Below are positions 10,342 to 63,390 of a stretch of 64,000 nt of DNA, in pieces. The stretch is from IMG/VR virus record IMGVR_UViG_3300025913_000021, positions 1-64,000 of that record. The stretch is one strand, 5' to 3'. The notes below the pieces were generated by a model, which searched no databases, had not been told where the DNA came from, and saw nothing but the letters and a program-made list of their open reading frames with translations. The stretch is from a virus. Numbering within the stretch: the stretch's first letter is position 1; the number at the start of each line of letters is the position of its first letter. A program made the position numbers and the translations under genes.

Positions 10342-10536
10342 TCACAGTTCCTCCTCGATGACGTAGGGATGACTCGCTCGGTCCATCTGGAATGGCGAGC
10401 GCTCGGGGCACTTGCTGCACCCCGGCCTGCGGACGCCCTGCTCTGACCACGGAGCCCAGGCGTGGGAGGGTCGCGCCGAGTTCAGCGCGACGATCATGCG
10501 GCGACGACGCTCCTCGGGCGTGACGGCGGTCGTCAT
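10342..10536 (-). CDS. 64-residue protein with EEP-type tail
   Basis: MTTAVTPEERRRRMIVALNS... starts in an ATGA overlap with the upstream gene. It has a CSKC pair and ends SHPYVIEEEL. This is the last gene of its unit; the next start is hundreds of bases away, so the tail cannot be explained as a ribosome site for a following gene. Function unknown, possibly a single-metal zinc finger. Confidence 0.65.
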   Translation of the reverse strand: MTTAVTPEERRRRMIVALNSARPSHAWAPWSEQGVRRPGCSKCPERSPFQMDRASHPYVIEEEL

Positions 10537-10862
10537 GGCTGGATCAGGTTCTCGCTGTCGGCGCGCTCGGAGTTCAGGAACTCGTGCTGCGCGGGCCACT
10601 TCCTCGCGTACTCGTCCAAGAGTCGATCGTGCCACTTGCGAGTGAGGTGCCGGTGGCACGTGGTCCACGCCGTGCCCTCGACGTGGTGCTTGCCGATGCG
10701 GAAGCAGCTCACGCACTTGCGGTGCTGGTAGAACAGCACGACACCCGCGAGCAGCGTGACGTTGCTGATGTTGGCCGCGAAGCCGGACCACCACAGGTAG
10801 TAGGCGCTGTCCGGGCTGTTGACACCCAGAAAGTGCGCCAGCCAGGTCACCCGAGTTCCCAT
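10533..10862 (-). CDS. membrane protein with Cys/His tail
   Basis: A 109-residue protein. The N-terminal MGTRVTWLAHFLGVNSPDSA leads into a predicted membrane span (about residues 24-45, WWSGFAANISNVTLLAGVVL), followed by a CVSCFRIGKHHVEGTAWTTC metal-ligand-like stretch and a charged C-terminus. This arrangement is common among small proteins of actinobacterial phages, where the role is unknown. It overlaps the 10847 gene by 16 bp. Confidence 0.7.
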   Translation of the reverse strand: MGTRVTWLAHFLGVNSPDSAYYLWWSGFAANISNVTLLAGVVLFYQHRKCVSCFRIGKHHVEGTAWTTCHRHLTRKWHDRLLDEYARKWPAQHEFLNSERADSENLIQP

Positions 10863-11221
10863 TCGTGGATGACGTAGAGGTGAGCGCCGGGGTCGTCCAT
10901 GTAGATCGACCCGGCCGCGCAGTCCTGACAGAACAGCCGGTGGTCCATCGCGAAGTCGTAGTACGGACGGCCGTCCGAATCCAGCATCGGGTTGAAGGGA
11001 TGGTCGGGCCGCTCGGAGATCTTCCGCGCCGATTCGACGAGCCCGGGCAGCACCATCGGGAAGCAGCTCGTGCGATCGACGAAGCCACCGCTCGACTGGA
11101 TCGCGGGCTGCTGCCGGATGCGTGGGTCGCCGTTGTAGACGTGACTGGACCCGGCCACGTGCAGGTACCCGTCGGGAGAGCCCGCCGTCGTGATCGTCCA
11201 GGTGACCGTGCTCGTGGCCAT
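10847..11221 (-). CDS. hypothetical protein with EEP-type tail
   Basis: A 124-residue protein from ATG 11221, the first gene after a terminator. Beta-rich start (MATSTVTWTITTAGSPDGYL), a single CQDC pair near residue 104, and the tail HLYVIHEWELG, a variant of the shared tail with two extra residues. It overlaps the next gene by 16 bp rather than 4, so the tail is not tied to the usual NTGA junction. Confidence 0.65.
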   Translation of the reverse strand: MATSTVTWTITTAGSPDGYLHVAGSSHVYNGDPRIRQQPAIQSSGGFVDRTSCFPMVLPGLVESARKISERPDHPFNPMLDSDGRPYYDFAMDHRLFCQDCAAGSIYMDDPGAHLYVIHEWELG

Positions 11222-11321: not shown

Positions 11322-11510
11322 TCATCGGTGCAGACCGGCACCTCGTCCAGAGTCCGACGGCGTGTCGTCGTCCTTCTTCTTCTTCGAGCCGGTCGGCGTC
11401 GCGCTCGCCGCTGCCGTCTCGCTGCCGTTGTCCTGCGGGTCAGGGTTCTTCGGCCCGCTCGCGCTTGCCTGGTCCTGCTTCGACACCTGGGTGCCCTGGT
11501 CGTCAGCCAC
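11322..11510 (-). CDS. 62-residue disordered Lys/Asp/Ser-rich protein
   Basis: From GTG 11510 with AGGAGAGAGAC upstream. Composition is Ser, Ala, Asp and Lys with a KKKKDDD run; no fold expected. It overlaps the end of the 11503 gene and precedes a terminator. Function unknown. Confidence 0.6.
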   Translation of the reverse strand: MADDQGTQVSKQDQASASGPKNPDPQDNGSETAAASATPTGSKKKKDDDTPSDSGRGAGLHR

Positions 11511-11928
11511 GTCTCTCTCCTCGCATCAAGTCCTGGAGGTCAGGCACCTCCTGGATCACGTACTCCGGTGCTCCATGCAGTATGTGCCGCCAGCGACCAC
11601 CGGCAAAGGTCAGCTCGACGGCCACCTGCGACCAGCCGAGGATGTCCTTCGCCCGCACGCGCACACCGGAAGCCTTCCCACCCATCAGCTCGCCACGAAA
11701 CCGAGCAGGCCCCTCGGCGGTGCAGTTGGTGACCATGCCTCGGCCGAGCTTGTTCATGTTCAGCGGCATCCAGCTCGCGCCGCCCGTGTCGGTGATCTCC
11801 AGGACGACGAGTCCACCCTTCTTCTCCGGGTGGAACTCTCCGATCTCGATCAGGAGATTGCCGGTGCCGGTGAAGAACATCGTGATCGCGTCGAAGCTGG
11901 GCACGATCTCCACGCTCGCGCCGATCAC
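11503..11928 (-). CDS. hypothetical protein with extended EEP tail
   Basis: A 141-residue protein from GTG 11928 (GTGA overlap). Beta-rich, with NLLIEIGEFHPEKKGGLVVL. Ends PEYVIQEVPDLQDLMRGERRG: here the shared tail runs on into D-L-Q-D-L, matching the extension seen at 56259 (D-L-M-D-L) and 21825 (D-Q-A-D-L). This supports a real peptide motif rather than a by-product of a ribosome site. Function unknown. Confidence 0.7.
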   Translation of the reverse strand: MIGASVEIVPSFDAITMFFTGTGNLLIEIGEFHPEKKGGLVVLEITDTGGASWMPLNMNKLGRGMVTNCTAEGPARFRGELMGGKASGVRVRAKDILGWSQVAVELTFAGGRWRHILHGAPEYVIQEVPDLQDLMRGERRG

Positions 11929-12290
11929 AGCCCCAGCTCCCGGATCACGTACAGGTGCACCTCGGGCCGGAAGGCGTTGCGGTAGTCGGCGTCCTGCCAG
12001 CAGTCGGCGCACACGATCGCCGGTTCGCTCAGCTCGCCCGCGTCACCGATCGGGTACTGCGCGTCCTTCGGGTGCCACTTGTGCGAGACCTGCGTGGGGG
12101 ACGCGCCGAACGAGCCGAGCGAGGCCCAATCCCTGTCCGCTGGCGCATACACGTTGGGCGGCATGCACACGTGGTCGCGGCGCGCGACGTACGCCTGTCC
12201 TCGATGGACGACGATCGCGCCCGCGTCGTAGCTCTTGGTCGCATCGGCGGTTCCGGCGAAGTGCGTCGGCGCTCCCCTGCTGAATTTCAC
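11925..12290 (-). CDS. hypothetical protein with EEP-type tail
   Basis: A 121-residue protein from GTG 12290 (GTGA overlap). An early segment SYDAGAIVVHRGQAYVARRD looks like a small SH3-like or carbohydrate-binding beta unit of the kind found in tail and chitin-binding modules. CADCW lies near the end and the protein finishes HLYVIRELGL. Role unknown. Confidence 0.65.
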   Translation of the reverse strand: MKFSRGAPTHFAGTADATKSYDAGAIVVHRGQAYVARRDHVCMPPNVYAPADRDWASLGSFGASPTQVSHKWHPKDAQYPIGDAGELSEPAIVCADCWQDADYRNAFRPEVHLYVIRELGL

Positions 12291-12622
12291 GGCTCCTCGT
12301 AGATCACGAAATCTTGCGGGAACGACGAACCGTCCTGTCGGTACGCCAGCACCGGCTGCGTGATCCCGTGCTGGCGCATGAACTCGACCTGCGAGTCGAT
12401 GATCCCCTTCTGCACGTCGCACTCGACCTCCAGCCCGTCGATCCGCTTCTGCAATGCCTCCAGCGTCTGACCCTGCGTCTCCTTCTGGGCATCGAGGCGC
12501 TCGTGCATGCCCTTGATGGCGGCTTCGCGCCGACGCACCAGCTTGAACAGGAGGTGGATCATCCAGCACGCAATCCCCAGGAGGACGGCCAGCACGGCGA
12601 TGATGGTCAGCGCCCACGCCAC
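12287..12622 (-). CDS. membrane-anchored coiled-coil protein with EEP tail
   Basis: A 111-residue protein from GTG 12622. One N-terminal membrane span (about residues 3-27), then a coiled coil with heptads (RREAAIKGMHERLDAQKETQ, LQKRIDGLEVECDVQKGIID), ending QDFVIYEEP. The layout recalls phage spanins or anchored scaffold proteins, but nothing more specific is visible. First gene of its unit, divergent from the plus-strand island. Confidence 0.7.
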   Translation of the reverse strand: MAWALTIIAVLAVLLGIACWMIHLLFKLVRRREAAIKGMHERLDAQKETQGQTLEALQKRIDGLEVECDVQKGIIDSQVEFMRQHGITQPVLAYRQDGSSFPQDFVIYEEP

Positions 12623-13728: not shown

Positions 13729-14097
13729 CTAGGGCTGCTCGATGATGACGTAGCCCGGCACGATGTAGGTATCGACGCCAGCAGCGTGCGCGATACCCAC
13801 CATGTGAGCCGTTCCGCGTCCACCCGGGAACGCGATCACCAGATCGGGCTTGAACTCGACCAGCATTCGCTTGTTGCGGATCGCTCCAGCAGCCTTGCCA
13901 TGCTGATCCCAGTCGGCGCGGTACTCACGCCACCGCACCTTGCGATCGACGGCCCAGAACTTGCCCCAGCGGTCGGCACCGGCAGCCCCGCCTTGAGCCA
14001 GTTCCGTGATCGGAGTCGTCTCGTGGATCTTGTCCAGGATCTCGTTGACCCGCTCGTGGTCGGCGTAGTCGCGACCACCGCAGACGAGCACCCTCAT
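13729..14097 (-). CDS. SLOG-family (DUF2493/YspA-like) nucleotide-binding protein with EEP tail
   Basis: A 122-residue protein from ATG 14097, in an ATGA overlap. MRVLVCGGRDYADHERVNEI is the canonical DUF2493 start (VLVCGGRDY). ELAQGGAAGADRWGKFWA and DLVIAFPGGRGTAHMV complete the SLOG Rossmann-like fold, which binds nucleotides or nucleotide-derived ligands. The C-terminus ends PGYVIIEQP, so the shared tail is attached to a well-known fold that normally lacks it. Confidence 0.85.
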   Translation of the reverse strand: MRVLVCGGRDYADHERVNEILDKIHETTPITELAQGGAAGADRWGKFWAVDRKVRWREYRADWDQHGKAAGAIRNKRMLVEFKPDLVIAFPGGRGTAHMVGIAHAAGVDTYIVPGYVIIEQP

Positions 14098-15878: not shown

Positions 15879-16049
15879 TCACGGCTCCTCGGCGATGACG
15901 TACACGCCCTGGAACTCCTCCTCGGTGCTGACGAGCCGGAACCACGAGCCCATCCAGATGTACGCGCAGCCGGTCGCCGGGTCGAACCAGCAGTCGCCCT
16001 CCTCCGGGTTCACCGGCTCCTGGTCACCGACCATCCGCATCGAGATCAC
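15879..16049 (-). CDS. 56-residue protein with EEP tail, last gene of its operon
   Basis: GTG 16049 in GTGA overlap. VNPEEGDCWFDPATGCAYIW followed by MGSWFRLV resembles short tail or cell-surface peptide repeats, then ends GVYVIAEEP. The operon stops here at a terminator, so the tail is not needed to start another gene. Confidence 0.65.
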   Translation of the reverse strand: MISMRMVGDQEPVNPEEGDCWFDPATGCAYIWMGSWFRLVSTEEEFQGVYVIAEEP

Positions 16050-16351
16050 GGCTCCTCCTGGATGGTCGGCGGGTCGAGGTAGCGGCACTCGTACTCGCAC
16101 ATCAGGTAGTCCGGGTGGCCGCACATGCACTGGCCATCGACAGCGGCCGGGTGCATCGACTCGCCGTGGTACTCGAAGTCCGGCTCGTCGATGTCGAAGC
16201 CGATCGGGTCCACGTGCCCTGGGCAAACGCCGAGGATCGCTTCCAGACGAGCGTCGATTTCTTCCTCCGTGATCATCGCGGCCCACTGCTCGGCCAGCTC
16301 GTGCACCTCGGTGAACAGCGCGGCCAGTTCTCTGAGTTCGTCAGCGTCCAT
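16046..16351 (-). CDS. hypothetical protein with EEP tail
   Basis: A 101-residue protein, MDADELRELAALFTEVHELA..., helical first half and CMCGHPDYLMCEYEC near the end (possible zinc site). Ends DPPTIQEEP with CAG GAG GAG CCG TGA, whose last bases give the next GTG start. Confidence 0.7.
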   Translation of the reverse strand: MDADELRELAALFTEVHELAEQWAAMITEEEIDARLEAILGVCPGHVDPIGFDIDEPDFEYHGESMHPAAVDGQCMCGHPDYLMCEYECRYLDPPTIQEEP

Positions 16352-16386: not shown

Positions 16387-16569
16387 TCAGGGCTCCTCTT
16401 GGATCAGATACATGTTGTCGCCGTGCAGCCAGCCGACCTTCTTGGCGATGTCCAGAGCGATCATCCGGTCTCGCGCGCGGCGCAGTTCGTACTCGCTCGT
16501 GAAGATCAGCTCGTGCTCGGTCCCTTCGTGCGTAACCGCCACCAGGATCCAGGTGGGGACGACGGTCAG
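16387..16569 (-). CDS. 60-residue protein with EEP tail and CTG start
   Basis: Frame TVVPTWILVAVTHEGTEHEL... ending NMYLIQEEP. The only junction-type start is CTG 16569, in a CTGA overlap with the upstream EEP-tail gene, which carries GGAGGAG just before it. If correct, all four NTGA overlaps (ATGA, GTGA, TTGA, CTGA) are used in this operon. Function unknown. Confidence 0.55.
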   Translation of the reverse strand: MTVVPTWILVAVTHEGTEHELIFTSEYELRRARDRMIALDIAKKVGWLHGDNMYLIQEEP

Positions 16570-16736
16570 GGCTCCTCCTCGATGATGTAGATCATGAGCG
16601 AGTTGAAGGCGATCGACAGTTCCAAGTACACCTCGTTGAAGGGTCGGTGCTGAGTCGAGGCGACGTTCTCGACCAGCTCGTTGAACAGTTTCCGCGCGTG
16701 CAGATCCTCGTCAAGCGCGGTCTCGATCGGATTCAC
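16566..16736 (-). CDS. 56-residue helical protein with EEP tail
   Basis: GTG 16736 (GTGA overlap). MNPIETALDEDLHARKLFNE..., amphipathic helices, ending LMIYIIEEEP. The last codons GAG GAG GAG CCC TGA carry the ribosome site and CTG start of the following gene. Confidence 0.65.
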   Translation of the reverse strand: MNPIETALDEDLHARKLFNELVENVASTQHRPFNEVYLELSIAFNSLMIYIIEEEP

Positions 16737-17029
16737 ACGAAGGGGCTCAAGGGCGGGAAGTCCATGCGGGCCACGACCATCGTGATGACCTCGATGCTGG
16801 CCGAGCGTGGCCCCATCAGGCCGATGCCCATGAGCTGCGCGTCCATCGGTCGGTCGGCCTCGAAGTGGCTGGAGAACCGCGCGATAGCGAAGCCCTCATT
16901 TGACACGGCCTTCTTCACGACGACGTGCCGTCCTGCCAGGGCTGCCGTCTCCTCGACCCATTTCTGATGCTCGTCCAATTCCGACTCCATGCCGTTCATG
17001 ACGAGTTCGACGTGATACTCCAAACCCAT
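16733..17029 (-). CDS. hypothetical protein
   Basis: A 98-residue protein, ATG 17029 in a TAATG junction. Alpha/beta pattern with ARFSSHFEADRPMDAQLMGI; ends MDFPPLSPFV without the shared tail. Function unknown. Confidence 0.65.
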   Translation of the reverse strand: MGLEYHVELVMNGMESELDEHQKWVEETAALAGRHVVVKKAVSNEGFAIARFSSHFEADRPMDAQLMGIGLMGPRSASIEVITMVVARMDFPPLSPFV

Positions 17030-17304
17030 TAGGGCTCCTCCTGGATGGTGTACTGCCAGGTCGCCCAGCGGTAGATCATGCCGTGCGGTGGCTTGAGGGA
17101 TGGTCGGAAGATCGTCTGTTCACAGCGCAGGCACTCGGCCGTGCTCAGATAGGCCGCGCGCATTTCGTCCACCGGTTCGTGGAACCGCAGTATCCGACCG
17201 TCGAGCGCCTGGCAGAGGAAGCTGAGTCCCCAGCTCCCCGACTTCGGAATGAGCTGGAAGGCTTCGGGCGTCCAGTCCAGATAGATCGTGCGCGTGCCGG
17301 TCAT
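17029..17304 (-). CDS. hypothetical protein with EEP tail
   Basis: A 91-residue protein, ATG 17304 (ATGA). CLRCEQ gives one Cys pair; ends WATWQYTIQEEP. It uses a TAA stop, rare in this window, and still carries the GAGGAG of the tail before the next ATG. Confidence 0.7.
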   Translation of the reverse strand: MTGTRTIYLDWTPEAFQLIPKSGSWGLSFLCQALDGRILRFHEPVDEMRAAYLSTAECLRCEQTIFRPSLKPPHGMIYRWATWQYTIQEEP

Positions 17305-17537
17305 GGCAGCTCCACGATCTCGTAGTCCTCATAGCGCGCCGCGAACTGCTCGTCGGTGTACCAGCGGGAACCGACGACCTTGAGCGCCTTGCAGTGCTGC
17401 CCGCAGTGCGCACACGTGCCCTGGAGGAACGGGAGGGACTCGAACGCGAGCCGTCGCTCTGCCGCCACGCGGTGTAGCCCGTTGACCGCGTAGAAGCAGT
17501 TGACCTCCTCGCGAGGATGGGGGACTTGAATGGTCAC
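17301..17537 (-). CDS. zinc-binding-like protein with EEP-type tail
   Basis: A 78-residue protein, GTG 17537. CAHCGQHCKAL gives a compact metal site; ends YEDYEIVELP, the -ELP form of the tail. Function unknown. Confidence 0.65.
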   Translation of the reverse strand: MTIQVPHPREEVNCFYAVNGLHRVAAERRLAFESLPFLQGTCAHCGQHCKALKVVGSRWYTDEQFAARYEDYEIVELP

Positions 17538-17752
17538 GGCAGCTCCGAGATCACGTACTGCGGCCAGTCGGTTTCCAGGGCCGCGATGTGGTCGGCCTTC
17601 GCCTTCTCAACCCTGGCGACGCGAGCCTCCACGTCGAGTCGGTTCATCAGCACGCTGATCCCGACCTGGACGAGCACGATCGCGACGCAGGCACCGTAGA
17701 TGCAGACGAGCAGCACGTCGCTGATGATGCGACTTGCGAGATCACTGCTCAC
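17534..17752 (-). CDS. membrane-anchored small protein with EEP-type tail
   Basis: A 72-residue protein, GTG 17752. One membrane span (ISDVLLVCIYGACVAIVLVQ), then a short charged helix and the end WPQYVISELP. If the span is inserted N-out, the tail faces the cytoplasm. Confidence 0.7.
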   Translation of the reverse strand: MSSDLASRIISDVLLVCIYGACVAIVLVQVGISVLMNRLDVEARVARVEKAKADHIAALETDWPQYVISELP

Positions 17753-17928
17753 GGTTCCTCCTGGATGACCAGAAGTGGATCTATCTTGCTGTACCGACCG
17801 CGAGAGCTGACCTGCGCCGTATGGGTGATCTTGAAGCCCGGGTAGGGCAGGTGGCACCAACTCAGCGACTGGTCGTCCCAGTAGATGTAGTGGCCGCAGG
17901 TGTAGCACACCCGCATCCAGCGGCTCAC
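17749..17928 (-). CDS. 59-residue zinc-like protein with EEP tail
   Basis: GTG 17928. CYTCGHYIYWDDQSLSWCH gives Cys/Cys/Cys/His ligands; ends DPLLVIQEEP. Function unknown. Confidence 0.7.
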   Translation of the reverse strand: MSRWMRVCYTCGHYIYWDDQSLSWCHLPYPGFKITHTAQVSSRGRYSKIDPLLVIQEEP

Positions 17929-18149
17929 GGTTCTTCCTGGATGACGTACTCCGGGATGCCGGTGCGGTGCTCCATGCACTCGTAGGTCTGTCGAGCGCCG
18001 ACGAACATGCACCCGCAGTGCATCGTGAAGTGGTACTGGTTCACGTTCTTCGCCTCACGCGCGCGGAGCGCTGCGATGCCGAGCGCCTGGTGCACGTCGC
18101 TGCTGACGCGAGGTCGGCGCTGGCCGGTCTCGTACCACTCATCGCTCAC
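17925..18149 (-). CDS. 74-residue protein with EEP tail
   Basis: GTG 18149. Arg-rich helical start, CGCMF and CMEH in the second half, ends GIPEYVIQEEP. Codons TAC GTC ATC CAG GAA GAA CCG show synonymous GAA use for the two glutamates, unlike the GAG GAG in other copies. Confidence 0.7.
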   Translation of the reverse strand: MSDEWYETGQRRPRVSSDVHQALGIAALRAREAKNVNQYHFTMHCGCMFVGARQTYECMEHRTGIPEYVIQEEP

Positions 18150-18439
18150 GGCAGCTCCTCGATGACGAACGGTCGCGTCCGCCACGGTGAGGTGGTGATC
18201 GTGCCTTGGAAGCGCTTGTCCTTCGACGGGTGCGCGGTCACGTCGCGCTCGATGAGTCGCCCGCAGCCGCTACAGGTGGCCTCCTGGCCAACCCGGGGTA
18301 CGGTGCTGGCCGGAGCGCGCTGCGAGTACGCCGCAGGCAAGTGGCCACCGATGCTCGTCGGGCATTCCTCGTTCCACCAGCGCAGCTCCTTGCGGATGCG
18401 TCGGTGCGTGCGCTTGCGCTCGTTGCGGCCACGGGTCAC
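18146..18439 (-). CDS. basic zinc-finger-like protein with EEP-type tail
   Basis: A 97-residue protein, GTG 18439. Very basic N-terminus (RGRNERKRTHRRIRKELRWW), CSGCGRLIERD metal pair, ends RTRPFVIEELP. Probably nucleic-acid binding. Confidence 0.7.
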   Translation of the reverse strand: MTRGRNERKRTHRRIRKELRWWNEECPTSIGGHLPAAYSQRAPASTVPRVGQEATCSGCGRLIERDVTAHPSKDKRFQGTITTSPWRTRPFVIEELP

Positions 18440-18798
18440 GGTTCCTCGCTGATCACGTGGATGCTCTTGCAGCCGACCCAGGCGATCGGCCCACGCTCGT
18501 CGTCGGTCCAGGCGACATCGCGTGCGTCCCAATCGAGGTTGTCGCGATGCACGTCGCGCTCGAACTGGATTGCATCCTCACGATCGAGATCGCACTGCTG
18601 AGCCCAGTCAGGCGTGGGATCTGGACGCACGTCGAAAAGCTCATGGCAGCCGATGCAGCGCCAGGCGGTGCGCTTGCGGATGAAGCCCGCCGACTCCGGG
18701 ATGGTGTTGTGCCGGTGTGGCGTGCCGGTCATCAGCTCCATCTGGTGCTCCTCGATGTGGTCGCACGTCACCGTGCGGCACAGTGGACAGACCCTCAA
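18436..18798 (-). CDS. zinc protein with EEP tail, TTG start
   Basis: A 120-residue protein whose TTG 18798 overlaps the upstream stop as TTGA; a GTG at 18831 is possible but less likely. CPLCRTVTCDH and CIGCHELFD provide metal ligands; ends CKSIHVISEEP. Function unknown. Confidence 0.7.
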   Translation of the reverse strand: MRVCPLCRTVTCDHIEEHQMELMTGTPHRHNTIPESAGFIRKRTAWRCIGCHELFDVRPDPTPDWAQQCDLDREDAIQFERDVHRDNLDWDARDVAWTDDERGPIAWVGCKSIHVISEEP

Positions 18799-19217: not shown

Positions 19218-19431
19218 GGTGGGTGGTCTCCTTCGGGTCGATCTCGAACTCGGGGACCGTGTAGCCGGTGGGCACCCACTCGGTCGCGCTCACGTTCCCG
19301 TCCCTGTCAATGTTCGGGATGGTGTCCACGTAGTTGCGGCACTCGCGGCAGAACGAGCGCAGCCACTTCGTGCCGTCACGCTCCACGATCATCGCCTCGC
19401 GCACCGAGGCCGAGGTGTGCGGGCAGCTCAC
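19210..19431 (-). CDS. 73-residue protein with Cys pairs
   Basis: GTG 19431 (GTGA). MSCPHTSASVREAMIVERDG..., FCRECRNYVD in the middle, ends DPKETTHHV. Resembles generic small actinophage zinc proteins. Function unknown. Confidence 0.65.
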   Translation of the reverse strand: MSCPHTSASVREAMIVERDGTKWLRSFCRECRNYVDTIPNIDRDGNVSATEWVPTGYTVPEFEIDPKETTHHV

Positions 19432-19622
19432 GGTTCCTCCTGGATGATGTACGGCTGCATCACCTGGAGACCGTGGCCGGGAGGAGTTCTAGGCATGGTG
19501 GCGAACACCTTGCCCAGGTCGCGGAACGCTTGCTGCATCTTCCGGCCGTTCATCGCGAAGTCCACGTAGCTCTTGGTGACCGCATCGTCGGACGGGGGCT
19601 CGACGTTGGAAAGCTCACTCAC
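19428..19622 (-). CDS. 64-residue protein with EEP tail
   Basis: GTG 19622 (GTGA). PPSDDAVTKSYVDFAMNGRK resembles the short phrase VTKSYVD common around tail-fibre repeats, then ends QVMQPYIIQEEP. Function unknown. Confidence 0.65.
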   Translation of the reverse strand: MSELSNVEPPSDDAVTKSYVDFAMNGRKMQQAFRDLGKVFATMPRTPPGHGLQVMQPYIIQEEP

Positions 19623-21397: not shown

Positions 21398-21828
21398 CAG
21401 TTGCTCGGGCAGTCGCTGGAGTGGTCGTACTTGTACGGCGCGATCTCGACGCCACCGCACTTCGGGCAGCGCTCCCTGGGCGTGGCACTGCTCGGGTCGT
21501 GGTAACCCGGCGTGGGCTCGACCTTCTCGGGCGTCGCGTAGCCGGGGATGGTGAAGCCGAGGCTGGCGGCGTTGATGCACTCCATCGCGGTCTGACTGGC
21601 CCACAACGTTGTCCCCTCGCCCGTGACGGCGAAGTGGTGCCGCCCGCCATGCGCGTCGCAGGCCATGATCGAGACGACGGCCAGACGCAGGTCGTGCGAG
21701 TTGCCGAAGGTGATGCCCTCGGTGGCTCCGGCCAGATAGGCGTTGCGCATCCGCGCCGCCTCGATCGCCTTGGCCTGCTGGAGCTGCTCGCTCTCGTCAG
21801 CCGCCGGAATGATGGTCTCGTCGGTCAC
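21397..21828 (-). CDS. hypothetical protein with C-terminal zinc ribbon
   Basis: A 143-residue protein, GTG 21828. The middle has VSIMACDAHGGRHHFAVTGE; the end has RCPKCGGVEIAPYKYDHSSDC. Ribbon-type ligands suggest binding to nucleic acid or a partner protein. Function unknown. Confidence 0.65.
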   Translation of the reverse strand: MTDETIIPAADESEQLQQAKAIEAARMRNAYLAGATEGITFGNSHDLRLAVVSIMACDAHGGRHHFAVTGEGTTLWASQTAMECINAASLGFTIPGYATPEKVEPTPGYHDPSSATPRERCPKCGGVEIAPYKYDHSSDCPSN

Positions 21829-22082
21829 TGCTCTGATCCTTTCGGCTGCTCGTCCAAATCGGCCTGGTCAGGTTCCTCCTGGATCACCTGGCCGAGGATG
21901 AAGGGCGCGAAGATGTCCGCGCCGACGTTCGTCCACATCACGGCCTCGTGGACGCGGAAGTGCTGCTGCGGGTTGGTGACGACGGCGGTGCAGAGATCGC
22001 AGACGAACAGCTCGGGGCTGATCAAGTCGTTGAACGGCGTCGCGGTCAGACGGATCGCGCGCTGGCTGTCGCTGTCGGCCAT
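21825..22082 (-). CDS. zinc protein with extended EEP tail
   Basis: An 85-residue protein, ATG 22082. CDLCTAVVTNPQQHFRVH is a C2H2-type finger; the C-terminus reads GQVIQEEPDQADLDEQ and runs 14 residues past the proline. The D-x-x-D-L extension matches those at 11503 and 56259. First gene of its unit; a GATGTTCGGAAAT element lies upstream. Confidence 0.7.
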   Translation of the reverse strand: MADSDSQRAIRLTATPFNDLISPELFVCDLCTAVVTNPQQHFRVHEAVMWTNVGADIFAPFILGQVIQEEPDQADLDEQPKGSEQ

Positions 22083-22520: not shown

Positions 22521-22853
22521 TTAGTCGCGGCCGGGGAACTCGGGGATCACGTAGATCCGGTACGCGCCGCGCAGGGTGAAGTTGCACCGCTCGCAGTACC
22601 AGAGCTTGGTCACCCGCAGCTCATCGACGGTGTGCGACACCAGCGGCATCGACGCGGCGCAGAAGTCGCACTCTGCCTCGTACTCGCGTAGCGCCTGCCA
22701 CCACGGCATGCTCGCAACCCGACGCCCTGTCGTCGGCCGCTCGCGCTGCTCCTCGGGCGAGTAGATCCCGGTGCGCCGCATCTTCGACCGCTCGGCGGCA
22801 CGACTCATGGCGCGCCGGAGCTGGGCGCGCTCGATCTCGTCCCGCAGAGCCAT
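22521..22853 (-). CDS. zinc protein with EEP-type tail
   Basis: A 110-residue protein, ATG 22853. Basic helical first half, then CDFCAASM and CERCNFTLRG metal pairs, ending RIYVIPEFPGRD. The GRD ending after the proline is shared with the 23943 gene (YVIQEEPGRDG). No gene overlaps its end; the next start is 75 bp away. Confidence 0.7.
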   Translation of the reverse strand: MALRDEIERAQLRRAMSRAAERSKMRRTGIYSPEEQRERPTTGRRVASMPWWQALREYEAECDFCAASMPLVSHTVDELRVTKLWYCERCNFTLRGAYRIYVIPEFPGRD

Positions 22854-23942: not shown

Positions 23943-24137
23943 TTAGCCGTCACGACCAGGCTCCTCCTGGATGACGTACAGCGTCGGTATGCCGCGATGA
24001 CGCTGCACGATCGTGTGCCGCCAACCGCCCACGATGTGCAGCTCGCCCTCGAAGTCCGGCTGCATGCTGGCGTAGAGCATGTACCCGCACTTCGCACAGG
24101 GCATCTGGATCGACCAGGGCGAGCGGCCGGGCTGCAC
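23943..24137 (-). CDS. 64-residue protein with EEP tail
   Basis: GTG 24137 sharing a base with the TAG stop upstream. CAKCGYMLYASM gives one Cys pair; ends TLYVIQEEPGRDG. Last gene of its operon, so the tail is not followed by another start. Confidence 0.7.
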   Translation of the reverse strand: MQPGRSPWSIQMPCAKCGYMLYASMQPDFEGELHIVGGWRHTIVQRHRGIPTLYVIQEEPGRDG

Positions 24138-27402: not shown

Positions 27403-27606
27403 CTACGGCCACTCCGGGATCACGTAGGTGACCGAGATGGAGGCCGACCACGGCTCCCCCACGTGCCCCGGGACGGCCCCGAAGCCGTCCTCGTGCCACC
27501 ACCGGTCCTTGTACCCGCTAACCCGAACAAGCACCTCGTGGCAGGTCCTACAGAGGCCCTCGTAGCGCAGACGATCACCGCTTCTCCCGTCGTGAATCCT
27601 GGACAA
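27403..27606 (-). CDS. 67-residue Cys protein with EEP-type tail
   Basis: TTG 27606 with AGGAGGACG upstream. RYEGLCRTCHEVLVR gives a Cys/Cys/His site; ends SVTYVIPEWP. The next gene begins 70 bp further, so the tail is not a junction signal here. It is the most promoter-proximal gene of the left arm. Confidence 0.65.
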   Translation of the reverse strand: MSRIHDGRSGDRLRYEGLCRTCHEVLVRVSGYKDRWWHEDGFGAVPGHVGEPWSASISVTYVIPEWP

Positions 27607-33050: not shown

Positions 33051-34415
33051 GTGAACGACACCATCGAGATCGACAACGAACTCGACGAACTCGCACGAGC
33101 GCTCGACGAGCTGGACGCGCAGGTCGCAACCGCGACTGTCGTCGAGGCTGAGGTCGAGGGCACCACCGACGACGACTACCTCGCACGGCTGGACCTGGAC
33201 GCGATCCTGGGTGGCGCGCTGCTGCTCAAGGGCGACCAGACGGCACGCACGTTCGTGAAGTCGAAGGAGATTTACCGCAACCCGGACGTGCTCGCGGCCG
33301 AGCGCGCTGCACGTGAGCGCAACCGCGACAAGCTGCGCAAGCGCATCGCTCGCCAGCGCGTGAAGCGGGCTGCGTTCGACAAGGAGCGCGAGGCCAAGCC
33401 GATCGACCAGGCGCGCATGAGCGCGTGCCTCCAGATGCTCGGCAACCTCTCGCACGTGATCGCGGACCTGACCATGCAGCGGTACAACCGGTTCCGCCGC
33501 ACGCTCGGGGACGTGATGGTCGAGGACATCGCGCAGGACGCGATCATCGCCATTGCCGAGGCCATGTCGCGCTCGGACACGGACCTGAGCGCGTACGCCG
33601 CGTGCTGCCTGTGGCTCAAGCGTGCGCCGCAACCGTTCGTGGCTGCCGACGGGCCGGAGGGCACGGGGCGACTGCTGGGCACGATCATCCGCGTGATCGG
33701 CACGACGATCATCGCGGTCTACCGCAAGTCCACGATCAAGACGTGGACGCTCGCGGTCGGACCCGAGGGCAAGGACGTGTGGGTGCGTCGCGACACGACG
33801 ATCGAGAGCCTCGACAAGCTCGCGACCATCGCGGCCAACACGTACACGGACGTGGACACGCTGATCGCCAAGCACAAGGCGAGCGGCAAGCCCAAGCAGA
33901 AGTCCACGCCCCCGGGCATGCGCGAGAAGCGCCTGTTCGCACGTGCGGTGATCGACTCGGCGATCGAGGCGCGTGGACTCGGCTGGCTGGCGACGATGCT
34001 CCTGGACGACGACCGCAGGCGCACGGACGGCAGCTTCAAGTGGACCGAGAACGCGGACACGGTGTGGGCTGGCTTCGGCTTCCCGCCGATGACCGTGGAC
34101 AGCCCGCGCCTGCGCGCTGACTTCGCACGTCAGGCGGTCAAGCTCGCGTTCGCGGACATGCCCGCGATCGTCAGCGAGGTCTACGGGCTGATCGACTCGC
34201 CCGAGCTGATGTGGTTCATCGACGTGTTCGGCGACAACGCCGCGCACGTGGTGGCGGGCAAGATCATCGCCAACCGCGCCAACCAGGAGCACCAGTGGGC
34301 GATCGACGGTGGGCGCTCGCTGGAGATGACCATGCGCATGATCGAGGACCCGGCCTACCGGCAGGACTCGCTCGCATGCATCATCGCGGCCGAGTTGGAC
34401 GATGACGACGAGTGA
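33051..34415 (+). CDS. sigma-70-like protein (distant)
   Basis: A 454-residue protein from GTG 33051. After an acidic N-terminus, residues about 140-200 read MQRYNRFRRTLGDVMVEDIA then QDAIIAIAEAMSR. The segment [ED]D[IL][AV]QDAIIAIAEA resembles region 2 of sigma-70 factors (DLxQEAxLAxxxA). The middle is a beta-rich insert (GTTIIAVYRKSTIKTWTLAV) and the C-terminal 200 residues are helical without an obvious region 4. If the resemblance is real, this is a divergent phage sigma factor that could read the recurring promoter-like motifs. Moderate to low certainty. Confidence 0.5.
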   Translation: MNDTIEIDNELDELARALDELDAQVATATVVEAEVEGTTDDDYLARLDLDAILGGALLLKGDQTARTFVKSKEIYRNPDVLAAERAARERNRDKLRKRIARQRVKRAAFDKEREAKPIDQARMSACLQMLGNLSHVIADLTMQRYNRFRRTLGDVMVEDIAQDAIIAIAEAMSRSDTDLSAYAACCLWLKRAPQPFVAADGPEGTGRLLGTIIRVIGTTIIAVYRKSTIKTWTLAVGPEGKDVWVRRDTTIESLDKLATIAANTYTDVDTLIAKHKASGKPKQKSTPPGMREKRLFARAVIDSAIEARGLGWLATMLLDDDRRRTDGSFKWTENADTVWAGFGFPPMTVDSPRLRADFARQAVKLAFADMPAIVSEVYGLIDSPELMWFIDVFGDNAAHVVAGKIIANRANQEHQWAIDGGRSLEMTMRMIEDPAYRQDSLACIIAAELDDDDE

Positions 34416-34591
34416 GCCCGTGGGTCGCGTCGTACCGCACGTGTGCCTGGTGTGGTCGCCAGTGCACCGTGCGGGACGACGAATGGGTGCACGTCCTGGA
34501 CAACGACCGCAGGTGTTGGCCCAACGTCCACACGACGGGCGAGTACGTGCGGTTCGCCACTCCGGAGTACCTGATCCGCGAGGAGCCTTAG
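34412..34591 (+). CDS. 59-residue zinc protein with EEP tail
   Basis: GTG 34412 (GTGA). CAWCGRQCTVRDD provides Cys ligands; ends TPEYLIREEP and stops with TAG. The next gene is on the opposite strand, converging with a 4-bp overlap, so the GAGGAG in the tail codons serves no downstream start. This is a key case for peptide-level conservation of the tail. Confidence 0.75.
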   Translation: MSPWVASYRTCAWCGRQCTVRDDEWVHVLDNDRRCWPNVHTTGEYVRFATPEYLIREEP

Positions 34592-43168: not shown

Positions 43169-43533
43169 CCACCTACGACCTGTCCACCGCCGTCCGTGAC
43201 GAGTGGGACGACGGATTCGAGGACTGCGACGACTGCGCAGAACCGTGGGAGCAGCCCAAGTGGGACTGCGGCTGCTCACGATGCAAGCCCGGCCTTCGCG
43301 ACTCGGAGCGCTGCATCTGTCCCGCCAATCTCGTCATCAACGACGACGGCACCCGCCAGTGGCACGGCACCCTCAAGGGCAATACGGACGGGTGTCCAAT
43401 TCACATCCAGCCTGGTTGCCCACAATGCGGCGAGACCTGGATCAAGTCTTGGCGCTGGCCGAAGTGCGACTCGTGCGGCTGGACCGCACCGATCATCGAA
43501 GAAGAACCATCCGCGCTCGACCTGAGCGCCTAG
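43165..43533 (+). CDS. zinc-rich protein with extended EEP tail
   Basis: A 122-residue protein, GTG 43165. CDDCAEPWEQPKWDCGCSRC, CICPANL and CPQCGETW/CDSCGW make three or more zinc pairs. The C-terminus reads APIIEEEPSALDLSA: the shared tail plus the S-x-x-D-L form of the extension. The next ATG is 17 bp away, with its own hairpin ribosome site. Function unknown. Confidence 0.75.
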   Translation: MTTYDLSTAVRDEWDDGFEDCDDCAEPWEQPKWDCGCSRCKPGLRDSERCICPANLVINDDGTRQWHGTLKGNTDGCPIHIQPGCPQCGETWIKSWRWPKCDSCGWTAPIIEEEPSALDLSA

Positions 43534-49765: not shown

Positions 49766-49983
49766 GCAGGATGGTCATGGTCGCGCTGACGGACGAGCAG
49801 GTAGCTGTTCTCCGTCAGCGCGGCCTCACCTCCGACGAGGAGATCCGCCAGGTCATGCTCAAGGGCATGGGCACGCTGTTCGACCTCTACGACGTGACCA
49901 ACGACGGCCAGCTCGTGGTTCTTCGGCCAGGCGCGAAGGTCCGTGGCCGATTCCGCCGCATCACCCTCGACATCGACACCTGA
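49762..49983 (+). CDS. hypothetical protein between MoxR and VWA genes
   Basis: A 73-residue protein, ATG 49762 (ATGA). MSRMVMVALTDEQVAVLRQR..., alpha then beta (DGQLVVLRPGAKVRGRFRRI). It is made together with the ATPase and may be a small adaptor, inferred only from position. Confidence 0.65.
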   Translation: MSRMVMVALTDEQVAVLRQRGLTSDEEIRQVMLKGMGTLFDLYDVTNDGQLVVLRPGAKVRGRFRRITLDIDT

Positions 49984-52203: not shown

Positions 52204-52538
52204 CCACGCGGATGACGTACGCCGAGGCGCAGCGGGCCAACCGTCTGTACTCGGTGCTACCGACCCTGCCCAAGACCAACCGGCCCGAGTGGGCCACGTT
52301 CATCTACGGTCGATCGCCGGAGTTCAAGCAGCACAGCAACATCGGACACGCCAAGAGCGCGATCCACTCGGCTGGGCACGGCGTGCTCTACCGCTGGATG
52401 ACCTGGGACCACGAGGAGCCGAATTGGACGCCCGTCGCAATCGTCGAGAAGGGCGAGGTCAAGACCCACCCGGCAATGCAGACGGGGGCGAAGCCGATGA
52501 CTCCGGCGGTCGCGCACATGATCGAGGAGGAGCCGTGA
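52200..52538 (+). CDS. hypothetical protein with EEP tail
   Basis: A 112-residue protein, GTG 52200 (GTGA). Mixed fold with FIYGRSPEFKQHSNIGHAKS and WTPVAIVEKGEVKTHPAMQT; ends PAVAHMIEEEP. The codons ATG ATC GAG GAG GAG CCG TGA include the ribosome site and GTG of the next gene. Confidence 0.7.
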   Translation: MTTRMTYAEAQRANRLYSVLPTLPKTNRPEWATFIYGRSPEFKQHSNIGHAKSAIHSAGHGVLYRWMTWDHEEPNWTPVAIVEKGEVKTHPAMQTGAKPMTPAVAHMIEEEP

Positions 52539-54626: not shown

Positions 54627-55013
54627 TTGCCGAAGCTGACCCTCCAGGGGTGTAAGCATCCGATCCTCCAACCGTGGGGAGCGGACTACGACCCGTGGAC
54701 GAGCGAGGGCTCGAAGCAGGTCACCTGCATGGTCTGCTACGAGCGCCTGATCGTCGAGGACGACCAGCCCGCCAACCGCATCTTTGGTCGTCGCGGCGGC
54801 GCAATGGACAACTCGAAGCTGCCTCGCGCCCAGCCAGCTCTGCCGTGCGAGCACCGAAGCAAGACGCCCATCCAGAAGCCCGAGAAGTTCACTCACGGCG
54901 ACTACACCGATGCGCTCTGCGAGACGTGCGGCGTCGTGCTGCGTCACCCCGAAGGCCCCGGCCAGTGGGAGGAGGTGATCTTCAATGGCTATGTCATCCG
55001 AGAGGAGCCCTGA
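54627..55013 (+). CDS. zinc protein with EEP tail
   Basis: A 128-residue protein, TTG 54627 with AGGAG upstream. CKHPILQPWGADYDPW, CMVCYERLIVEDD, CEHRSK and CETCGVVLRHPEG suggest two zinc sites; ends FNGYVIREEP. The next GTG lies 1 bp past the stop and uses the GAGAGGAG of the tail codons. Confidence 0.7.
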   Translation: MPKLTLQGCKHPILQPWGADYDPWTSEGSKQVTCMVCYERLIVEDDQPANRIFGRRGGAMDNSKLPRAQPALPCEHRSKTPIQKPEKFTHGDYTDALCETCGVVLRHPEGPGQWEEVIFNGYVIREEP

Positions 55014-55014
55014 C

Positions 55015-55323
55015 GTGCCCACCTGCATGCGCTGCGAGCGGACGTTCAGCTCGCATCGGGGTTTGGACATCCATCGAAATCGGGCTCACCCGGTCTCGGA
55101 CAACTTCGTCATCGACTTCCTCAACCTCCCGCACGCACAGCAGGAGGAGGTTCTGCGCATCGTCGCGCCGGACGGCAAGCCGATCGACCTGGACCAGATC
55201 GTGCCTCGGATGCTGGCGATCGTCAGTTCACCGCAGAGCCGTGCCGAGAACACGACACTGCGCTCGGCGCTGGCGAAGATCACCGGAGTCGAGTACCGCT
55301 ACATGATTTCGGAGGAGCCGTGA
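55015..55323 (+). CDS. C2H2 zinc-finger protein with EEP tail
   Basis: A 102-residue protein, GTG 55015. CMRCERTFSSHRGLDIHRNR with AH is a textbook C2H2 finger (C-x2-C-x12-H-x4/5-H). Then a helical acidic part with DLDQIVPRMLAIVSS; ends YRYMISEEP. Likely DNA or RNA binding. Confidence 0.75.
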   Translation: MPTCMRCERTFSSHRGLDIHRNRAHPVSDNFVIDFLNLPHAQQEEVLRIVAPDGKPIDLDQIVPRMLAIVSSPQSRAENTTLRSALAKITGVEYRYMISEEP

Positions 55324-55589
55324 CGATGACACTGCCTCCGGCGATGCCCGCCTGGCAGCCCCAGGACAAGCGCCCACTGCCTGATGCGATCGGCACGGGC
55401 ACGCAGTACGTCAAGGAGTGCGCCAACAGCCAGCGCGACAACGGCTACCACTTCCCGAAGTGCGGCGTGCTGATGTCACCGGACGAGCGCTCGGACTGGT
55501 GCGCGTCCTGCGGTCTGCGGATCTTCTTCCACCCGGCTTCGCAGAACTGGTACAGCGCCACGTGGCACCTGATCATCGAGGAACCATGA
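55320..55589 (+). CDS. zinc protein with EEP tail
   Basis: An 89-residue protein, GTG 55320 (GTGA). CANSQRDNGYHFPKCGVLMS and CASCGLRIFFH give metal pairs; ends ATWHLIIEEP. Codons ATC ATC GAG GAA CCA TGA provide the next ATG. Confidence 0.7.
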   Translation: MTMTLPPAMPAWQPQDKRPLPDAIGTGTQYVKECANSQRDNGYHFPKCGVLMSPDERSDWCASCGLRIFFHPASQNWYSATWHLIIEEP

Positions 55590-56062
55590 GCGGCGTCGGG
55601 CACGCGGCACTCACGTGGTACTGCATCGACTGCGCGCACTACTTCGACGACCCGATGGACTCCAACGCTCACGTCCGCAAGACCGGGCACACCGCGCGCT
55701 GCGTCAACATGGCCGATCACGACACGTGGGTCCATGACGAACGCGACGACGTACCGCTCACCCGCAAGACGCAGCTCGTCAGAAAGGCTGCTCGTCAGTT
55801 TCGGACGGGCGAGGTGCTGTACCTGTTCGGGTGCGACACCGGGCCGGAACTCTACGGCGTGCTGCGCGGCGCGTTCGTCATCACCGAGAAGAAGCACCAG
55901 TCCGACACGGGCGTGAGCTTCTTCCTGCGTCACCAGTACGTCCAGCCCAACAAGCCGTGGTCGGGTCCGGGTCGCAGCTACTTGGTCGAGTTCGCACGCG
56001 ACCAGTTGCTGTACCGGCTCTCGGGCACGCCGGTCACATTCGTCATTCGGGAACTGCCGTGA
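55586..56062 (+). CDS. hypothetical protein with EEP-type tail
   Basis: A 158-residue protein, ATG 55586 (ATGA). YCIDCAHYFDDPMDSNAHVR resembles a Cys/His finger; the second half is beta-rich (GELYGVLRGAFVI-like; SYLVEFARDQLLYRLSGTPV) and ends VTFVIRELP. Function unknown. Confidence 0.7.
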   Translation: MSGVGHAALTWYCIDCAHYFDDPMDSNAHVRKTGHTARCVNMADHDTWVHDERDDVPLTRKTQLVRKAARQFRTGEVLYLFGCDTGPELYGVLRGAFVITEKKHQSDTGVSFFLRHQYVQPNKPWSGPGRSYLVEFARDQLLYRLSGTPVTFVIRELP

Positions 56063-56262
56063 CCGCCGAACTGCCACAGCTACGCGATGCGCTCGTGGAG
56101 CTATTCAGAGAGCACGAAGATGAGATCACCGAGGAGTACGGCGACTACGGCTACGGCGGCGAATGGCACGACCTCGGTCGTCGTCTCGTTCCCGAGTCTG
56201 CTGCCGACTTGGTGATCCGATTCCTGGCTTCCAGGACGTACGTCATACAGGAGACGCCATGA
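56059..56262 (+). CDS. 67-residue protein with EEP-type tail
   Basis: GTG 56059 (GTGA). Helical and acidic, MTAELPQLRDALVELFREHE..., ends LASRTYVIQETP; the ACG CCA TGA end gives the next ATG. Function unknown. Confidence 0.7.
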   Translation: MTAELPQLRDALVELFREHEDEITEEYGDYGYGGEWHDLGRRLVPESAADLVIRFLASRTYVIQETP

Positions 56263-56693
56263 CGAGACCAGCAAGCAAACGCGCCCGCATCCTGGTCAAG
56301 GGGACGGCGCTGCACTTCTTCGACGCGGGCCTCGGCCAGCGCGGCAGTGACAAGTTCTATCGGGCTTTCGTGTACGAGCACCCGGCGGGCCAGTGGCACG
56401 CCGTAATGTGCTGGGGCCGCGACGGCACCTACGGCCAGAGCAAGGCCGAGGACTTCCCCACCGAGTACGACGCCAACAAGGTGATCCAGCGGAAGATCGC
56501 CGAGAAGATGCGCCACGGCTACGAGATCATCGGCAACGGCGACGCGGTGCTCGACATCGCCTCGTCCATCCGGCTGGAAATGCTCGGCGTGGAGTTCATG
56601 CACGCCGTCGCGCAGCGCGACCCGGACAAGAGCCGGATGAGTGGAGGCATCATCATCCAGGAGGAACCGGACCTGATGGACTTGCTGGGCTGA
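56259..56693 (+). CDS. WGR-domain-like protein with extended EEP tail
   Basis: A 144-residue protein, ATG 56259 (ATGA). KFYRAFVYEHPAGQWHAVMC, WGRDGTYGQSKAEDF, then a helix with KVIQRKIAEKMRHGYE follow the WGR domain order seen in PARP-type and bacterial nucleic-acid-binding proteins. The C-terminus reads GGIIIQEEPDLMDLLG, the fullest version of the extended tail, followed only by a unit boundary. It stands out as a case where the tail continues past the proline. Confidence 0.75.
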   Translation: MTRPASKRARILVKGTALHFFDAGLGQRGSDKFYRAFVYEHPAGQWHAVMCWGRDGTYGQSKAEDFPTEYDANKVIQRKIAEKMRHGYEIIGNGDAVLDIASSIRLEMLGVEFMHAVAQRDPDKSRMSGGIIIQEEPDLMDLLG

Positions 56694-56758: not shown

Positions 56759-57118
56759 ATGAACAAGATCGCCTCAACACGTCAGGTCGCCCAAGTCGCT
56801 CAAGGACTGAGCGACGCGTTCCTGCGGTGCCGCGACATCGGCCACCAGTGGAGGCTCTACTACCAGCACCGCGAAGGCTCCGTGATCGTGCGGAAGATGT
56901 GGTGCCCATCGTGCAAGACGAACCGCAAGACGAAGATCAACCGCTACGGCGAGGTCGTGTCCAACAGCTACGACTACGACGACGGTTACCTCATCGAGGG
57001 ACTCGGCCGCGTGCAGGGTCGCAGCAAGGCGCTGCTCCGAGCCGAAGCGATCAACCGCACACCCGAGATCGACCTCGACTACCGCATCTTCGAGGAACCC
57101 AGCACTGCCGACCTGTAG
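56759..57118 (+). CDS. zinc protein with extended EEP-type tail
   Basis: A 119-residue protein, ATG 56759. Helical start, CRDIGHQWRLYYQH and CPSCKTNRKTKINR (metal pair), ends DYRIFEEPSTADL, which is the tail plus S-x-x-D-L. First gene of its unit; the next ATG is 9 bp away with GTAGGAGGCCGAC. Confidence 0.7.
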   Translation: MNKIASTRQVAQVAQGLSDAFLRCRDIGHQWRLYYQHREGSVIVRKMWCPSCKTNRKTKINRYGEVVSNSYDYDDGYLIEGLGRVQGRSKALLRAEAINRTPEIDLDYRIFEEPSTADL

Positions 57119-61478: not shown

Positions 61479-62154
61479 CTCGGGCCTGCGCTGGAGTAAG
61501 GGCAGGTTCGAGCCTGAGAGTTACCCCATCATCAGCGACCTGATGGAAGCCCATCGCAAGGGCACGCCACTGCCGGACCTCGCGAACTTCGACGAGAACA
61601 AGAGCCCGACGCGCTCGTCGCTGGTGAAGCAGTTCGCCTGGGCGATCCCGTCGGATCAGACGCTCGCCTGGATTCGCAAGAGGCTGCTCGGCCGCGAGGT
61701 CGTGGAGATCGGCGCGGGTCGTGGCTACTGGGCGTGGATGTTGGAGCAGGTCGGCATCCCGGTCACCGCCTACGACGAGAAGCTGCTCGGCCTGGGCGAG
61801 GAGATCGGCTACTTCAAGGACGCGGGCGAGCACACGTACCACGAGATCCTGCGTGGTGGTCCGGAGAAGGCGGCGCTGCACCCGGACAAGGTGCTGTTCC
61901 TGTGCTGGCCTCCGTACGACGACGACATGGCCGTGAACTGCCTGCGCGCCTACCAGGGCGACACGCTGATGTTCGAAGGCGAGGGCGAGGGTGGCTGCAC
62001 GGCCAACGACGCCTTCTTCACCGAGCTGGCGGTCAACTGGGTGGAAGTCGATCAGCACTACCCGACGCAGTGGTCGGGCATCCACGACTTCCTGACGATC
62101 TACCGACGCAGCGAGCGCCAGATCGACCTGACGATCATCCGAGAGGAGCCCTGA
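61423..62154 (+). CDS. SAM-dependent methyltransferase-like protein with EEP tail
   Basis: A 243-residue protein, GTG 61423. VVEIGAGRGYWAWMLEQVGI is motif I of class I methyltransferases (E-x-G-x-G-x-G), VTAYDE follows as the acidic residue after strand 2, and VLFLCWPPYDDDMA is a motif IV-like stretch. Length suits a single domain. The C-terminus ends QIDLTIIREEP. Target not visible (nucleic acid or small molecule). A methyltransferase fold carrying the shared tail is a further case of tail plus known domain. Confidence 0.8.
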   Translation: MTAVRLDNPYWRIVEKFPNSGLRWSKGRFEPESYPIISDLMEAHRKGTPLPDLANFDENKSPTRSSLVKQFAWAIPSDQTLAWIRKRLLGREVVEIGAGRGYWAWMLEQVGIPVTAYDEKLLGLGEEIGYFKDAGEHTYHEILRGGPEKAALHPDKVLFLCWPPYDDDMAVNCLRAYQGDTLMFEGEGEGGCTANDAFFTELAVNWVEVDQHYPTQWSGIHDFLTIYRRSERQIDLTIIREEP

Positions 62155-62555
62155 TGAGCTTCGACAGCACCACGAGGGTGCACGTCACCGACCCGGCCTT
62201 CATGAACGCCCTGCTCGGTCGTCGCATCGTGGCCATCGACGACGAGGCGACCACGCTGATCCTGGACAACGGGGTCCGCATGGAGTTCGAGGTCGATATC
62301 TCGGACTGCTGCTCGTCGGTCGTGCTCAAGAGCCTGGCCACCGACGAGAACGTCATCACCAACGTCGAGGTCGCCGACAACGAGGACGAGACCGGTGGCG
62401 AGGGTGCGTACCGCGCGTGGATCCACGTGATCACCGAGGCGGGCGAGCTGAACATCGCCGAGGCCGAGGGCGACGCCTCGAACGGCTACTACCTGCACGG
62501 CTTCGCACTCGCCGTCACCATCACCACTCCGCACCTCATCCAGGAGCACCCATGA
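62154..62555 (+). CDS. DUF7448-like protein with EEP-type tail
   Basis: A 133-residue protein, ATG 62154 (TGATG). IVAIDDEATTLILDNGVRME, DISDCCSSVVLKSL and ITNVEVADNEDETGGEGAYR match a beta-rich family common in actinophages. Ends TTPHLIQEHP; the CAC CCA TGA end gives the next ATG. Function unknown. Confidence 0.7.
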   Translation: MSFDSTTRVHVTDPAFMNALLGRRIVAIDDEATTLILDNGVRMEFEVDISDCCSSVVLKSLATDENVITNVEVADNEDETGGEGAYRAWIHVITEAGELNIAEAEGDASNGYYLHGFALAVTITTPHLIQEHP

Positions 62556-63184: not shown

Positions 63185-63390
63185 AGGGTCCGCCGTCCGG
63201 CGACCCAGCCGCGCTCCAGAGGTGGTGCGAGGACGTGCGCTCACGCAACGAGCGAGAGCGGCAAGACCGCTGGTGGCACGAGATCGCACTCGAACGAGCC
63301 CGTCGCTACTGGGATGACGGCACCGGCTACGGCGCGGAGGTCTGGGATCAGAACATGCCGATCCTCGTGATCGTCGAACTGCCCAGCTAG
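63181..63390 (+). CDS. 69-residue protein with EEP-type tail
   Basis: GTG 63181 (GTGA). Arg/Trp/Glu-rich helices (RNERERQDRWWHEIALERAR), ends MPILVIVELPS. Last gene of its unit; the next start is 75 bp away, so this tail is not a junction signal. Confidence 0.65.
   Translation: MKGPPSGDPAALQRWCEDVRSRNERERQDRWWHEIALERARRYWDDGTGYGAEVWDQNMPILVIVELPS

Follow-up and report, generated by a model that had tools for sequence, protein, structure and literature searches.

In phage T4, a short peptide is common to the otherwise highly diverse internal proteins (PMC3012670). This capsid-targeting sequence is N-terminal and is cleaved by the prohead protease. Cluster K mycobacteriophages harbor the SAS, GGGATAGGAGCCC, a DNA-level repeat located directly upstream of starts. 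The C-terminal tip of SSB and the bacterial sliding-clamp-binding peptides are acidic/hydrophobic linear motifs that dock onto a hub. The closest analogue in design of the tail described here appears to be the T4 capsid-targeting sequence, as one short peptide is borne by otherwise diverse small phage proteins. However, it is not a member of that class: it is C-terminal and fails the criterion of an N-terminal position, it occurs on more than 40 genes, and there is no evidence for a protease or for presence in the virion. The SAS is resembled through its core AGGAGCC (PMC3203893), which occurs many times over at gene boundaries, but the tail is conserved in the peptide frame and independently of starts. 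The criteria for an SAS are unmet, as the tail is not confined to sites immediately upstream of starts and GGGATAGGAGCCC is not conserved at the DNA level. Some tails in relatives end in EEEPF, EEEPW or EEEPY, like the acid-x-P-F tip of SSB, and extended tails ending in DLMDLL or LEDLF vaguely resemble the clamp motif. The Y-x-I-x-E core, in contrast, has no counterpart in either, and the tails analyzed here end in E-x-P without the final Phe of an SSB-like tip (acidic residues followed by an I/L-P-F end). No precedent for such a tail was found in the literature searched, which left out most subscription papers.

The window analyzed covers the initial 64 kb of an IMG/VR phage record (149,260 bases) with a G+C content of 66%, in which genes were called with a simple codon-usage caller. 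The gene at 34412 has the C-terminus FATPEYLIREEP-TAG. Its start and the stop of gene 33051-34415 overlap at GTGA, and 553 bp separate its stop from the next called plus-strand gene at 35145. The first-pass annotation had described this gene as ending in YLIREEP-TAG against a convergent minus-strand gene. This held: the convergent gene overlaps the stop by 4 bp and its match to PHROG 5046 shows that it is a real gene, which is also LAGLIDADG-like by eye and by a weak Pfam match. A perfect 13-bp GC-rich hairpin (34608-34642) is located within this convergent gene, about 16-20 bp past the 34412 stop, and transcription from either side may end there.

The tail follows the consensus [Y/H/F]-[V/I/L]-I-x-E-x-P, is frequently positioned right at the stop codon and is present on 35 genes of the window, roughly a quarter of its genes (Table 1). 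About 45 tailed genes were found in the 97 kb searched of the 149-kb record, including further ones at 64-97 kb. The core peptide occurred within the last 18 residues of 43 of 215 called genes, compared with 2.7 expected from its rate inside the same proteins; some of the 43 are weak, e.g. 19210. The DNA pattern ATHNNNGARSARCC was found 24 times in the window versus 0.5 times in shuffled sequences. These results show that the tail recurs and that its position is C-terminal in all cases. Thus the initial observation of a tail held, and the tail is more widespread than had been noted.

Table 1. Tails and associated features in the window.
Feature	Position	Strand	Remarks
YVIEEEL, gene 10342-10536	10342..10365	-	retained at unit ends in all six homologous contigs
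YVIHEWELG	10847..10876	-	gene-end core search
Extended tail YVIQEVPDLQDLMRGERRG	11503..11562	-	
YVIRELGL	11925..11951	-	homologue in L062 (body-only search) ends YVIQEMP
FVIYEEP	12287..12310	-	membrane/coiled-coil protein
YVIIEQP	13729..13752	-	YspA-SLOG protein (13729-14091)
YVIAEEP	15879..15902	-	unit end, gap 661 bp
PTIQEEP	16046..16069	-	gene-end core search
YLIQEEP	16387..16410	-	gene-end core search
YIIEEEP	16566..16589	-	gene-end core search
YTIQEEP	17029..17052	-	gene-end core search
YEIVELP	17301..17324	-	without purine run, still -4 overlap with next gene
YVISELP	17534..17557	-	gene-end core search
LVIQEEP	17749..17772	-	gene-end core search
YVIQEEP	17925..17948	-	gene-end core search
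FVIEELP	18146..18169	-	gene-end core search
HVISEEP	18436..18459	-	gene-end core search
YIIQEEP	19428..19451	-	gene-end core search
Extended tail QVIQEEPDQADLDEQPKGSEQ	21825..21890	-	
YVIPEFPGRD	22521..22553	-	unit end
YVIQEEPGRDG	23943..23978	-	unit end
YVIPEWP	27403..27426	-	unit end
34412 gene	34412-34591	+	59-aa CxxC protein; body CAWCGRQ..WVH..C..FATP; tail YLIREEP
YLIREEP-TAG tail	34568-34591	+	C-terminal end of 34412 gene
Convergent homing-endonuclease-like gene	34588-34938	-	PHROG 5046 endonuclease, E=3.6e-19
Extended tail PIIEEEPSALDLSA	43489..43533	+	gene-end core search
HMIEEEP	52515..52538	+	gap 191
YVIREEP	54990..55013	+	gene-end core search
YMISEEP	55300..55323	+	gene-end core search
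HLIIEEP	55566..55589	+	gene-end core search
FVIRELP	56039..56062	+	gene-end core search
YVIQETP	56239..56262	+	67-aa gene 56059-56262, not called by gene caller
Extended tail IIIQEEPDLMDLLG	56649..56693	+	WGR-domain protein
Extended tail YRIFEEPSTADL	57080..57118	+	homologue in tail-less G020 without tail
TIIREEP	62131..62154	+	methyltransferase-like protein
HLIQEHP	62532..62555	+	DUF7448 protein
LVIVELPS	63364..63390	+	unit end

Six other genes had been named as carrying the tail at unit ends or before gaps of about 70 bp or more. All six are tailed, several with variants, and the distances to the following gene called on the same strand agree: 10342 (ending PYVIEEEL, 274 bp), 15879 (YVIAEEP, 661 bp), 23943 (YVIQEEPGRDG, 205 bp), 22521 (YVIPEFPGRD, 74 bp), 27403 (YVIPEWP, 70 bp) and 63181 (LVIVELPS, 74 bp). 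Since several of these carry a variant tail or one to four residues beyond it, they favor a reading as peptide. Gene 52200 (HMIEEEP) is a further unit-end case.

The main rival explanation is that the tail is the ribosome-binding site (GAGGAG) of the next gene and the peptide a by-product, as in the cluster K SAS. In favor of this, GAGGAGCC is similar to the SAS core, and a Shine-Dalgarno-like run is present in most tailed overlapping genes versus half of the other overlapping genes. However, the tail is equally frequent with or without a following gene: no association was detected between tail and downstream coupling (p=0.56), nor between EE within the tail and coupling (p=0.73). Of 34 tailed genes counted, 13 lack a start within 20 bp. 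Among these, 55586 was so counted only since gene 56059-56262 had been missed and is therefore coupled; the coupling tests were not re-run and should not shift materially. The third codon positions of the tail vary as predicted from genome codon usage, indicating synonymous drift. Glutamate at the sixth residue is encoded by GAG in 15 of 22 cases, which is rarer than the genome average of 0.89, and GAA is commoner than average. This sixth residue, which would form the Shine-Dalgarno run, is itself variable (E, L, W, F, H, Q, T or V, giving EEP, ELP, EWP, EFP, EHP, EQP and ETP). The purine run is weakened or lost in ELP, EWP, EFP, EHP and ETP tails, whereas frame, I, E and P are retained while the sixth residue changes. 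ELP, EWP, EFP and EHP tails lack the run even ahead of a start, and ELP and EHP tails are found also where the next start overlaps by -4. Furthermore, conservation extends back to Y-V-I. The ribosome-site explanation is thus very unlikely, and the tail is conserved as a peptide, not as a ribosome site. GAGGAG may nevertheless double as one where another gene comes next.

Conservation along the tail alternates as Y-x-I-x-E-x-P. Among tails ending in E-x-P at the stop, per-position entropies are 2.0 (Y), 2.5 (V), 0.44 (I), 2.9 (x), 0 (E), 1.7 (x) and 0 (P) bits; the values for E and the final P are zero because both are fixed by the E-x-P selection. With a looser core selection, I occurred in 34 of 34 tails (V and F also being allowed) and P, which was not required, in 31 of 34. 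The invariance of E is partly built in, as the search pattern requires it; this applies less to I and P. Judged from sequence alone, the alternation would point to a strand that makes contact through one face rather than to an mRNA signal.

Relatives were gathered blind to the tail by a terminase search, which yielded 53 loci of 42-100% identity. Homologues of the unit-end gene 10342 were identified by its body only in five further phages on six contigs (L009, L010, L011, L015, L018 and L023, the first two being nearly identical). Their bodies are 34-53% identical and the next recognizable gene is 120-300 bp off in all six. None has lost the tail, which reads YVIEEEP, YVIEEEPF, YVIEEEPS or YIVKEWP. 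This retention at unit ends is shown and again contradicts a ribosome site. A profile search of the 10342 family, in which seven of seven members were tailed, is not evidence because the tail itself was its pattern. For the 34412 gene, a homologue (L062:14301-14489) with matching body layout (CxxC/W-x-H/ATP) ends in YEIQEEAL and retains YEIQEE; this match (tblastn, E=0.003) included the tail in the query. In total six homologous groups retain the tail, three of them known from relatives only; the groups are few and the relatives mostly short fragments. Outside the tailed relatives, the homologue of 56759 in tail-less G020 (body-only search) and the YspA and DUF7448 relatives in Rhodobacter, Microcystis and Corynebacterium phages lack the tail.

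Substitution patterns show constraint at the peptide level. Over all pairs, the tail core has pN 0.19 and pS 0.56, compared with pN 0.45 and pS 0.71 for the bodies; these pairs are non-independent and pS is close to saturation. Between G000 and the near-identical G001, the tails differ by one synonymous and no non-synonymous substitution in 126 codons and the bodies by 29 and 10 in 1421, which is too few for a test. The first-pass annotation had inferred selection on the peptide from the missing downstream start. That argument is weak if standing alone, but its conclusion is supported by the homologues, and the stronger evidence is synonymous drift, loss of the purine run even ahead of a start, the absent link to coupling and the alternation.

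The motif is degenerate and the exact end of the tail is not fixed, as relatives extend it to EEPF, EEPW, EEMEP or EEMxLEDLL. A second piece often follows the core in relatives (FVIDEEMTLEDLLSD, YLIDEEMGLEDLFNP, FIIDEEIPWSDRLAS) and also occurs in the window (IIIQEEPDLMDLLG); we infer that core plus second piece is perhaps a fuller ancestral form. In L009, L015 and L018 the tail is often one residue longer, mainly by an aromatic residue (EEEPF, EEEPW, EEEPY), giving an SSB-tip-like end. Near 1282-2669 of L015, L018 and L023, small proteins end in PKINMQDLFGLS, KIDMDELFGL or NVDLQHLFGMH. Such endings are a second recurring C-terminal motif, which resembles DLMDLL in the extended tails and, loosely, clamp-binding peptides.

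The tail could also act as a termination or stalling signal, with a C-terminal Glu-Pro ahead of the stop delaying release and thereby promoting tmRNA tagging or coupling. A C-terminal proline slows termination, and most tails in the window end in proline followed by a stop, mainly TGA. However, proline is not last in EEPF, EEPGRDG and EEPDLMDLLG, and EEEL and EEAL show together with the EEPF of relatives that a terminal proline is dispensable. The conserved Ile and aromatic residue are distant from the peptidyl-transferase center, no link to coupling exists, and the share of TGA is the same as in all genes. This explanation is considered very unlikely.

In an all-against-all comparison the tailed bodies were unrelated, save one short weak pair. 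Their domains include YspA-SLOG, WGR, DUF7448 and methyltransferase-like ones; others are transmembrane/coiled-coil proteins (by eye) and many are CxxC proteins. Due to this diversity the tail is regarded as a module appended to the ends of different proteins. The YspA-like SLOG protein belongs to a family common in phages and here bears an added YVIIEQP. CxxC was found in 19 of 35 tailed versus 18 of 92 other proteins (p=0.0003), so part of the tailed set could share ancestry or fold. This enrichment supports an alternative in which the tail is no free motif but the final strand of a small zinc-binding fold that has been duplicated repeatedly, as does the repeated layout C-x2-C ... D-x-A-x-H-x-Y-V-I-x-E in 10342, 10847, 11925 and relatives. 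Against it, 16 tailed proteins lack CxxC, several have YspA, DUF7448 or WGR domains, and the bodies show almost no sequence relation. Moreover, in the one usable structure model, of the 10342 family, the tail is coil of low confidence (pLDDT 56); the model of the YspA protein, made from a single sequence, was of too low quality for use. A duplicated zinc fold is therefore unlikely as an explanation of the tail.

The tails cluster among non-structural genes, and none of 31 structural genes carries one. Tailed phages form a clade with terminases at least 70% identical (G000, G001, G002, in which tails are sparse, G003/4, G005, G009, G012 and G017). Two near-full-length relatives (144 kb, 66%, and 148 kb, 62%) lack any match to ATHNNNGARGARCC and have only one to two loose core matches each, and no alternative shared tail was found in the sampled parts of tail-less relatives. 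Among the stretches matched in two scans of viral contigs, none outside the clade's own contigs had a tail cluster. Bacterial genomes contained ten scattered single matches to the tail pattern without any cluster, which are therefore ascribed to chance, and no relative of the phage terminase. The tail is thus shown to sit on unrelated domains and to be absent both from structural genes and from homologues beyond the clade.

This distribution also bears on the possibility that the tail is a procapsid-targeting tag and that tailed proteins are loaded into the capsid and injected along with the DNA, like T4 internal proteins. The design is the same, with diverse small proteins that have only a targeting peptide in common (PMC3012670), and the T4 prohead protease cleaves after I/L-x-E, which is present in the tail. 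However, no protease family match was found among the structural genes, the tail is C-terminal and missing from structural genes, some tailed proteins appear membrane-anchored, and more than 40 species are many for internal proteins. We consider this possibility unlikely.

The reading that we favor, with modest confidence, is that the tail is a short linear motif, C-terminal and specific to this lineage, through which diverse accessory proteins are recruited to one receptor. Few fixed positions and recurrence on unrelated proteins, as required of such a motif, are observed; for a disordered or free terminus there is only the low-confidence coil of a single model. The simplest account is a motif docking onto one receptor; docking, strand addition and a single receptor are all inferred in the absence of binding or other interaction data, and the receptor is unidentified. 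The last seven residues would form a free and flexible terminus, which joins the edge of the shared receptor as an additional, extended beta-strand. Alternate side chains (aromatic, Ile, Glu, Pro) would point toward the receptor, leaving the intervening residues free to vary; this strand addition rests on the alternating pattern alone. The tag would thereby bring many proteins with accessory or host-takeover roles together at a single site or on a single machine, which could be the replication site, RNA polymerase, the membrane or the procapsid, through a receptor of either phage or host origin.

Among receptor candidates, 42009-42881 is common to G000 and G009 and was not found in G013 or G020. 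Gene 33051-34415, also common to G000 and G009, is absent in G013 and has a weak match in G020. These are at most weak leads. At 48515-51973, a MoxR-type AAA+ ATPase (Pfam bpMoxR, 2.6e-36) adjoins a VWA-domain protein, a pair shared by relatives at about 50% identity. As a receptor this pair is unsupported because tail-less G013 and G020 have both genes. MoxR and methyltransferase homologues gave no match in the viral contigs searched. A tail-bearing phage SSB was also considered, but the search of the record turned up no SSB gene.

A bolder reading, offered only tentatively since we lean slightly against it, is a clade-specific address system in which one receptor would direct dozens of accessory proteins, unrelated to one another, to the same compartment or machine, with a tag gained once and spread by appending. 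It would cover zinc-knuckle, nucleotide-binding, methyltransferase-like and membrane-anchored proteins and their delivery during infection.

Gene 56059-56262 overlaps each neighbor by 4 bp; calling by codon usage missed it and the tail alone revealed it. The tail could thus help to detect genuine short genes. For most small accessory proteins of phages no function is known, and they are studied singly. A common tag would mean that much of the accessory gene set of one phage acts at one place, and it would provide a single bait for finding that place together with a sequence rule for spotting clients. It would also be a clean example of unrelated proteins tagged in a bacteriophage, a setting in which few linear motifs have been mapped.
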